Source: Balneola sp. (lineage in GTDB: Bacteria; Bacteroidota; Rhodothermia; Balneolales; Balneolaceae). From it: 64,000 nt of DNA. Of the stretch, positions 11,024 through 50,336 are shown one piece after another (position 1 is the first letter of the stretch; each line of letters begins with the position of its first letter). Where the stretch lies: contig RHLJ01000002.1 of the NCBI GenBank assembly GCA_003712055.1, positions 434,001-498,000 on the forward strand. The letters run 5' to 3'. Under the pieces are notes generated by a model, which did no database searches, was not told where the DNA came from, and saw nothing but the letters and a program-made list of their open reading frames with translations. The position numbers and the translations under genes are program-made.

Positions 11024-11455
11024 ATGGCAATAGAAAGAACATTAACTATTCTTAAACCCGATTGTGTTCGCAAAGGGCTTATAGGAGAGGTAACAAAAAG
11101 AATCCAGGATGCTGGTTTCACCATTTTAGCAATGAAGATGACCCGACTTACCATGGATACTGCGGGTGGTTTTTATGCTGTTCACAAAGAAAGACCTTTT
11201 TACGGCGAGTTGTGCGAATTTATGAGTAGCGGCGCGTGCGTACCAATGATTCTTGAGAAAGAAAATGCAGTAGCTGATTTCAGGACATTGATCGGTGCTA
11301 CTAACCCGGCAGAAGCTGATCAAGGAACCATCAGAGCTGATTTCGCTGATAGCGTTGGAGAAAATATTATACACGGTTCAGACTCGGTAGAAAATGGGAA
11401 AATAGAAGGAGTCTATTTTTTTGCTGAATCTGACGTAGTTGCAAATATCAGCTGA
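11024..11455 (+). CDS. ndk: Nucleoside diphosphate kinase
   Basis: The protein has 143 residues, the normal length. It equalises NDP/NTP pools by transferring a phosphate through a phospho-histidine. The signature IIHGSDS places the catalytic His at 117, and the N-terminal [10 protein letters not shown] is typical. It is divergent from the cyclase gene, with 114 bases between, and is followed by a strong terminator, so it is probably a single-gene transcript. Confidence 0.97.
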
Positions 11456-46784: not shown

Positions 46785-48077
46785 TTAGGCCGGAGTACCT
46801 TTGGAAAGGAAATTATAATCTCTGATAAACAACCTATTTGGGATAAGTCCTTCGCTATCTTCTGATAGCTCAGGTTTAATACGGTTTAGGAAATACATAG
46901 GTACCTTACCAATATTCTTTGCTTCAATCTCTCCTCTAGGTTCACACTCAAAAAAGTCTTTAATCCTTTCATAAGTATCTTGAGAAATATTGATACTCTC
47001 ATTTTCAGAGTTTTGCTCCATTCTGGAAGCGAGGTTTACCGCGGCTCCCCAAACATCATATGCAAATCTTCTTTTCCCAATTACCCCGACCACTGACTGT
47101 CCGGTATTAATTCCAATCCGAAGAGGGAAATAGGGGATGGAATCGGGTAATGAGTTTCTAAGATTTGATACAAAAAATCTCATTTTTAAAGCAGCAAGTG
47201 CTGTATCAATGGGGTGAGTATTATTTCTCTCAGGGATTCCCCCGGCTGCCATATAACTGTCGCCAATAGTTTTAATCTTGATCAGATTATGTTGTGATAT
47301 GAAGTCGTCAAACTTATCGAAGTAAAAGCTCAGGCTTTCAATCAGCTTTTCAGGAGAAAGATCGGGTACAATACGGCTGAAATCCTCAAAGTCAGTAAAC
47401 ATAAATGTAGCATCTTCATACCTTTCAGGAGCTACTGTTCCATATGCAAGTAAGCTATCCGCAATTTTCTTGGGAAATATGTTTTGAAGAAGATCTTCAT
47501 GCTCCTTTTTAGTGAGCTCAAGTTCCTGGTTGGCGGCATTTAAACCCGATTGCATTTTTTCGAGTCTGTTGTTTTGACCCAATGTGTTTTTATAAGTGGA
47601 TACAAGCAGGCTCACAAGATGAGAGAAATCAGCTTTAACGTGATATTGATTCCCTTCAATAGTCACCGGTACTGTTTCTTTAGTTTGAGAAACAGCGATA
47701 GGGTTGCTTAAGAGTTCACTTATTTTCGAGAATAAAGTGTCATCATCATAGGGCTTTGTGAGATAGTTATCTGCGCCGGCTTCAATGCCCTTCATTAAGC
47801 TTGTGGCTTCAATTCTGGATGTTACCAGGATTACCGGGATACTCTGCAATTTTGGATTCGTTTTGATGGAACTGCAAAGCTCATATCCATCCATCAGAGG
47901 CATTTCTACATCCGAAATAACAATGTCAGGATACTCGGTTTCTACGATTTCTAAGGCGTCCTTACCATTCTGAGCGGTAATTACATCGTATCCCTTTTGT
48001 ATTAGTTTGTGTCGAATAATGGTTACCAAAGCTGGGTAATCATCAACAACTAGTATCCTGGGTTTTGTTTGTAACAT
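46785..48077 (-). CDS. Response regulator with class III adenylate cyclase output
   Basis: The protein has 430 residues. Residues 1-125 are a receiver domain with the phospho-acceptor Asp in DIVISDVEMPLMDGYEL and the switch Lys in NYLTKPYDD. A coiled linker (about 165-200) leads to a cyclase domain: FMFTDFEDFSR, KTIGDSYMAAGG, and YDVWGAAVNLASRM with catalytic Asn and Arg. The metal Asp and substrate Lys are all present, so it should be active and controlled by an unlinked histidine kinase. Confidence 0.93.
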   Translation of the reverse strand: MLQTKPRILVVDDYPALVTIIRHKLIQKGYDVITAQNGKDALEIVETEYPDIVISDVEMPLMDGYELCSSIKTNPKLQSIPVILVTSRIEATSLMKGIEAGADNYLTKPYDDDTLFSKISELLSNPIAVSQTKETVPVTIEGNQYHVKADFSHLVSLLVSTYKNTLGQNNRLEKMQSGLNAANQELELTKKEHEDLLQNIFPKKIADSLLAYGTVAPERYEDATFMFTDFEDFSRIVPDLSPEKLIESLSFYFDKFDDFISQHNLIKIKTIGDSYMAAGGIPERNNTHPIDTALAALKMRFFVSNLRNSLPDSIPYFPLRIGINTGQSVVGVIGKRRFAYDVWGAAVNLASRMEQNSENESINISQDTYERIKDFFECEPRGEIEAKNIGKVPMYFLNRIKPELSEDSEGLIPNRLFIRDYNFLSKGTPA

Positions 48078-49552: not shown

Positions 49553-49638
49553 TTCCTAAGCATTTATCTGTCATAATTTCCAGCCCCTGACGATGAGGCA
49601 AAGCCTCGCTGTCAACATTTCTACCACCAAAAAATAGT

Positions 49639-49660
49639 ACTGAAATTTCTTCATTTCAGT
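49639..49660. promoter_or_regulatory. Candidate enhancer-protein binding site upstream of hsp20
   Basis: ACTGAAAT (49639-49646), six-base spacer, ATTTCAGT (49653-49660): a perfect inverted repeat centred about 74 bases before the predicted sigma-54 start. The position suits an activator site, but it could also be a weak terminator for the DAHP synthase gene, since four T follow. Confidence 0.45.
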
Positions 49661-49696
49661 TTTGCCGTCGTGTCATACGAACCTGTTTAAGAGCCA

Positions 49697-49713
49697 TTGG
49701 CATATCCATTGCA
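49697..49713 (+). promoter_or_regulatory. Sigma-54 (-24/-12) promoter of hsp20
   Basis: TTGGCAT-ATCCA-TTGCA matches TTGGCAC-N5-TTGCA, with GG at 49699-49700 and GC at 49711-49712, exactly 12 bases apart. Transcription would start near 49724, leaving a leader of about 41 bases. Confidence 0.6.
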
Positions 49714-49764
49714 AAATTCTCTGCGAATTCGAACTTAAAATTAAACATTCAAAAGAGGTTAATT

Positions 49765-50196
49765 ATGGCACTTATTAAATATACCAGACCAACTTCAGAT
49801 TTATTTTCAAGAAACTTCAACGATATCGTTGATGAGTTCTTCAATCAAAAAACTTCTAATTACAGAAGAGATAATTTTATGCCTAGCGTAGATGTTTCCG
49901 AAACGGAAACTCTTTTCGAGGTTTCAGTTGTATTACCTGGACTCAAAAAAGAAGACATCTCCGTAGACCTTGAAAAAGGCAAGCTAACAATCAGTGGAGA
50001 GCGCAAATTTGAGAATAAAGATGAAGGTAAAAACTTCCATAGAGTAGAAACACAATACGGAAAGTTTAGTCGTTCTTTCTACCTCCCCGATTCTATTGAT
50101 GAGAGTAGTATTTCTGCAAAATATGACGCAGGAATTCTTTCAATTACTATTAACAAGAGCGAAGAAGAAGCGAAGAAGCAAATCGAGATTGGATAA
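49765..50196 (+). CDS. Small heat-shock protein, Hsp20 family
   Basis: The protein has 143 residues. The alpha-crystallin domain spans about 38-130 (MPSVDVSETETLFEVSVVLP to the strand YDAGILSITIN). The C-terminal I-x-I type motif is represented by IEI at the end. It is an ATP-independent holdase that keeps unfolded proteins soluble until ClpB and other chaperones act. AGAGG, eight bases before the ATG, is one of the clearer ribosome sites in this window. The promoter looks sigma-54 dependent, and a strong terminator follows. Confidence 0.95.
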   Translation: MALIKYTRPTSDLFSRNFNDIVDEFFNQKTSNYRRDNFMPSVDVSETETLFEVSVVLPGLKKEDISVDLEKGKLTISGERKFENKDEGKNFHRVETQYGKFSRSFYLPDSIDESSISAKYDAGILSITINKSEEEAKKQIEIG

Positions 50197-50218: not shown

Positions 50219-50251
50219 AACCGAAGCCCGTGGAAAGGCTTCGGTTATTTT
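50219..50251 (+). terminator. Rho-independent terminator of hsp20
   Basis: AACCGAAGCC (50219-50228) pairs with GGCTTCGGTT (50237-50246), followed by ATTTTT. Confidence 0.88.
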
Positions 50252-50336
50252 TATGGTTACAAATTGTAAAGCGGTACAATTTTTAACCGGGAAGGCGTTG
50301 TAGCTCAAAATTAGAACTATCATCAAAGTTGACATT

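Follow-up and report, generated by a model that had tools for sequence, protein, structure and literature searches.

We propose, with a confidence of roughly 80%, that hsp20A of this Balneola genome is transcribed from a sigma-54 promoter, that a 431-aa AAA+ protein activates this promoter through palindromes of the form TGNC-N5-GNCA, and that the same control extends to a second unit, hsp20B-dnaK. The gene lies in the window, by which we mean the whole 64-kb stretch of DNA that was analysed (C2:434001-498000 of a 3.63-Mb assembly in nine contigs). In the proposed mechanism, sigma-54 RNA polymerase would transcribe hsp20A from a -24/-12 box, the 431-aa protein would bind the palindromes on one face of the helix upstream of that box, and the bound protein would contact the sigma-54 polymerase and open it with ATP. 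The hsp20B-dnaK operon would be driven by the same box plus palindrome, and because both carry this element, the two promoters would constitute a single small regulon for chaperones in the species.

The geometry of the promoter agrees with that described in a first-pass annotation of this DNA: in the box TTGGCATATCCATTGCA upstream of hsp20A, GG (49699-49700) and GC (49711-49712) are spaced by 12 bases, and the predicted +1, at about 49724, is 41 bases upstream of the ATG at 49765 (Table 1). This box is the sole exact match to TGGCAYNNNNNTTGCW (TGGCAY-N5-TTGCW) within the window. Matches with at most one mismatch occur there at the chance level (5 found versus 4.3 expected), so the hsp20A box alone would be unconvincing; it is conservation that makes it convincing. 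The gene product is a general HSP20-family protein, scoring below the NCBIfam IbpA/IbpB equivalog level (for IbpB, 28 bits against a cut-off of 207). Its transcript is probably monocistronic, judging from the terminator downstream. In the upstream stretches examined of the window's clpB and degP genes, neither box nor palindrome was found. At 46785-48077 of the window, between uvrA and a DAHP-synthase-like gene, a receiver domain is fused to an adenylate/guanylate cyclase-like domain.

Table 1. Features in and around the hsp20A promoter (positions in the window)
Feature	Position	Strand	Basis or remark
TGTCA half-site	49569..49573		sequence; TGNC recurrent at that register
distal palindrome TGACGATGAGGCA	49588..49600		at -109 to -111 in 17/50 hsp20A promoters
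TGTCA half-site	49610..49614		sequence; TGNC recurrent at that register
inverted repeat of the first-pass annotation, ACTGAAAT-TTCTTC-ATTTCAGT	49639..49660		exact; absent from the 49 other homologous promoters compared
degenerate palindrome copy TGAAATTTCTTCA, left part of the inverted repeat	49641..49653		sequence
proximal palindrome TGCCGTCGTGTCA	49663..49675		starts 35 bases before TGG
sigma-54 -24/-12 box TTGGCATATCCATTGCA	49697..49713	+	exact consensus; 9-10/10 in 49/50 family homologues
predicted transcription start (+1)	49724	+	inferred from box, 12 bases past the -12 C
hsp20A, small heat-shock protein, 143 aa	49765..50196	+	ORF; Pfam HSP20 88.5 bits
predicted intrinsic terminator CCGAAGCC...GGCTTCGG-TTATTTTT	50221..50252	+	read in sequence

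The upstream sequences of orthologous hsp20A genes were compared in 50 genomes of the family Balneolaceae. The best box has all 10 consensus bases in 33 of them, 9 in 16 and 8 in one, counts that are not independent, as these are related genomes within one family. At the hsp20A and hsp20B-dnaK promoters, each box column carries about 1.7-1.8 bits, versus 0.1-0.2 just upstream, although the figure for the box is inflated by an anchor that picks the best match in each promoter; when the dnaK promoters were shuffled as a control, no more than about one in 50 had at least 9 box bases. On the strength of this conservation, a chance match was rejected as the origin of the hsp20A box. Across 92 family genomes, an hsp20 match is present in 90 and rpoN scores above its cut-off in 83, and by the same test a scan of named genomes found no box at the hsp20 loci of other phyla.

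Four further exact boxes are present in the genome, one of which precedes a second hsp20 gene (hsp20B) with dnaK directly after it. At this promoter the box is 10/10 in 44 of 50 family genomes and 9/10 in 5. The single exception, G069, carries the exact element at its hsp20B gene, so the gene start there is probably misplaced. The remaining three exact boxes do not resemble one another and were set aside: one extends into the beginning of an ABC-transporter-like gene, one lies inside an ORF, and one, found about 60 bases before a gene for a YccA/Bax-inhibitor-1-like membrane protein (L042 1501-1516), lacks the palindrome and may belong to another activator.

Upstream of the box, the first-pass annotation had proposed an inverted repeat as the binding site for an activator. 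That repeat (ACTGAAAT/ATTTCAGT) is exact and centred about 74 bases before +1, as described, but it is found in one of 50 homologous promoters and was rejected as the enhancer for this lack of conservation. The idea of an enhancer was nevertheless right in kind. The conserved element is the 13-bp palindrome TGNC-N5-GNCA, which, out of 512 palindromes sharing its layout, ranks first in the hsp20A, hsp20B-dnaK and Bacteroidia dnaK promoter sets alike; second in the hsp20A set is TGNA-N5-TNCA. It is present in 36/50 hsp20A and 31/50 hsp20B-dnaK promoters, where about 1.2 would be expected anywhere in each set, and its start falls 35-37 bases upstream of TGG in 33 and 31 of them, respectively; an exact palindrome is absent from about 20-40% of promoters. 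TGNC half-sites recur between the proximal and distal palindromes of the hsp20A promoters. The whole window contains four TGNC-N5-GNCA sequences, two of them within 212 bases upstream of hsp20A.

The combination of the two elements is specific within these genomes. When 92 family genomes were searched for a compound pattern, the box with the palindrome at 12-32 bases, it was found in 74 of them and never in a reversed control, and nearly every match was an hsp20A or hsp20B-dnaK promoter. This genome has exactly two such compound elements, both at hsp20 promoters, bearing in mind that pattern searches of this kind find only those members of a regulon that are close to consensus.

The first-pass annotation had asked for an rpoN gene and an enhancer-binding protein, and the genome has both: one full rpoN (181.5 bits) and three strong PF00158 proteins. 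Our candidate activator is one of these three, a protein of 431 aa encoded outside the window (C2:377017-378309), which begins directly with the Sigma54_activat AAA+ domain, contains GAFTGA, and ends in a Fis-type HTH. It has no N-terminal sensor domain, and each of the other two (C1:452885 and C8:51091) carries a receiver domain. The sensor-less protein has one match each in 66 of 66 good family genomes and in 134 of 137 good genomes from the class of G112, which on general grounds we take to be the Bacteroidia. In a tree, the forms of this protein from the Balneolaceae and the Bacteroidia cluster (99/97) to the exclusion of five other enhancer-binding proteins, albeit ones with long branches, and the recognition helix SERT[LM]YRK is kept in all rows printed of the alignment. 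Its gene precedes lptE in this genome (gene names by resemblance), a miaB motif lies near it in 20 of 30 Bacteroidia loci, and in two Bacteroidia genomes the order over longer stretches is miaB-bEBP-lptE-(one ORF)-secG-groES-groEL.

The presence of three enhancer-binding proteins raises the possibility that one of the two response regulators, whose receiver domains could relay a stress signal, binds the palindrome instead. We consider this unlikely. In G079 (96% complete, rpoN present) and in G462 (0.5 Mb), the sensor-less protein is the sole enhancer-binding protein, yet the box and palindrome at dnaK are kept, and the C8 protein is encoded next to a histidine kinase and efflux-type genes. 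Distribution, context and elimination thus make the sensor-less protein the likely activator of the hsp20A and dnaK sites. We infer that it binds the palindrome and activates in response to protein misfolding or heat. As it lacks an N-terminal sensor domain, a partner probably governs its activity; speculatively, this could be a free chaperone, as DnaK is for sigma-32. The G462 case implies that sigma-54 chaperone control may survive extreme genome reduction. One genome counts against the proposal: in G082 (98% complete; L149), near-consensus chaperone-promoter boxes and the enhancer-binding protein are kept and no rpoN match was found, the gene being either on a missing contig or lost.

Beyond the family, 394 Bacteroidota genomes were scanned with the compound pattern; over large parts of the phylum its frequency is close to background. 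Selected matches precede hsp20-dnaK in order-level relatives and one distant genome, groESL in class-level relatives (with CIRCE-like elements), hsp20 in three class-level relatives and htpG in three distant genomes, but as these were hand-picked for a closer look, the share of chaperone genes among them is not a statistic. In one distant Bacteroidota genome, TGGCATACGATTTGC occurs roughly 90 bases upstream of a ClpC-type gene beside htpG (L273 14223). For an unbiased test, we took dnaK of 50 Bacteroidia genomes and allowed either TTGA or TTGC at -12: a box of at least 9/10 was found in 47 of 50 and the palindrome within 140 bases in 40 of 50, with 0.95 expected in each case. Most Bacteroidia dnaK promoters (L275-L324) carry TTGA at -12, versus TTGC in the Balneolaceae; the lineages differ in the sigma-54 promoter they prefer, a point against our proposal.

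The distances in this set also bear on what kind of protein uses the palindrome. The proximal copy before hsp20A is centred at about -55, closer than most enhancers, which could be taken to mean that a separate regulator, not an enhancer-binding protein, occupies it while sigma-54 is activated from elsewhere. This seems less probable still than a response regulator at the site: in the Bacteroidia, the palindrome starts at about 25, 35, 47, 57, 67, 78, 88 or 99 bases from the box, and the period of 10.5 bp in these spacings (R = 0.86) was equalled in none of 5000 random draws, though kinship among the genomes makes the real odds less than 5000 to 1, many families being represented nonetheless. 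Positions spread between 25 and 100 bases upstream of TGG, in steps of 10.5 bp, are what is expected of an activator that reaches the polymerase by DNA bending, unlike a fixed operator. The conserved, helically phased palindrome thereby resembles an upstream activator site and is probably one, and it is common to the Balneolaceae hsp20 and the Bacteroidia chaperone (dnaK) promoters.

Two other arrangements would give sigma-54 a smaller role. HrcA/CIRCE or another heat-shock repressor could be the main control of hsp20A, with sigma-54 secondary, given that the groESL operon of relatives in the same class pairs a sigma-54 element with a CIRCE-like one; we regard this as improbable, since a search for CIRCE (TTAGCACTC-N9-GAGTGCTAA) found no half-site upstream of hsp20A. 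The groESL arrangement itself was seen in one class-level family (L274 ~11050-11250; L251-L254, L264), where a sigma-54 box and palindrome are followed by the CIRCE-like element between them and groES, so that by its sequence this is one promoter region with two heat-shock controls. It is very improbable that an ordinary housekeeping promoter serves hsp20A and the sigma-54 match is due to chance, which the chance frequency of near-consensus boxes in the window might suggest: the box is conserved family-wide and its flanks are not, and a pattern search of the intergenic region before hsp20A found neither TTG-N17-21-TAnnT nor the TAnnTTTG box that the first-pass annotation had named as the sign of a different start. 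The conserved box, rpoN, the enhancer-binding proteins and the lack of TAnnTTTG or CIRCE in that region thus strongly support sigma-54 control of hsp20A at the level of sequence.

Chaperone control in the Bacteroidota, one of the major phyla among gut and marine bacteria, is poorly worked out. We give somewhat better than even odds to a broader version of our proposal, in which the main regulation of the heat-shock response throughout the Bacteroidota falls to sigma-54 and one ancient sensor-less protein, acting through TGNC-N5-GNCA at dnaK, hsp20, groESL and htpG. If so, the pair would fill the role that sigma-32 has in E. coli, even in a 0.5-Mb genome, which suggests sigma-54 as a possible core heat-shock sigma factor.

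Sigma-54 control of Bacteroidota chaperones has already been published. In Flavobacterium psychrophilum, 5'-end sequencing placed -24/-12 promoters (motif SM4) at groES-groEL, lon and dnaK, as well as at grpE-dnaJ, htpG, skp and clpB (2021; PMC9723704). The genome of that species encodes three PF00158 proteins; in the part of the paper drawn on here, the choice of activator is left open, the enhancer is likewise unidentified, and no hsp20 gene is among the promoters shown (PMC9723704). A 2025 prediction of sigma-54 regulons in the Bacteroidota and Planctomycetota found chaperone COGs to be enriched, including IbpA/Hsp20, DnaK, GroEL, GroES, GrpE and HSP90 (PMC12316311). It uses promoter matrices only, and its text contains neither "Balneol-", "Rhodotherm-", "UAS" nor "upstream activ-". 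Thus the first-pass annotation, which had called sigma-54 control of hsp20 notable, was well founded as to the control, but the surprise had been anticipated (PMC9723704, PMC12316311). Our case conforms to the published regulon in that -24/-12 elements precede chaperone genes (hsp20A and hsp20B-dnaK); compared with what was drawn on for F. psychrophilum, it differs in that the -12 element of the Balneolaceae reads TTGC and in that the members detected comprise two hsp20 units, of which one includes dnaK. A search of open-access full text found no paper that names the palindrome as an enhancer or assigns the sensor-less protein, and these two assignments appear to be new.

A specific enhancer and a single-copy candidate activator together reduce the proposal to a one-gene, one-site experiment. 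Among known systems, the nearest parallel to the candidate is PspF of the phage-shock response, a sigma-54 activator that has no N-terminal sensor domain and governs a stress operon. The 431-aa protein is like PspF in lacking that domain, but unlike it in scoring 292.4 bits against the NCBIfam equivalog cut-off of 443.55 and in having cytoplasmic chaperones as its inferred targets. Control by sigma-32, CIRCE/HrcA or HspR acts on the same target genes but employs a different sigma class or a repressor. A small heat-shock gene with a sigma-54 promoter has also been reported in a sigma-32 organism, namely E. coli ibpB, where that promoter is secondary.
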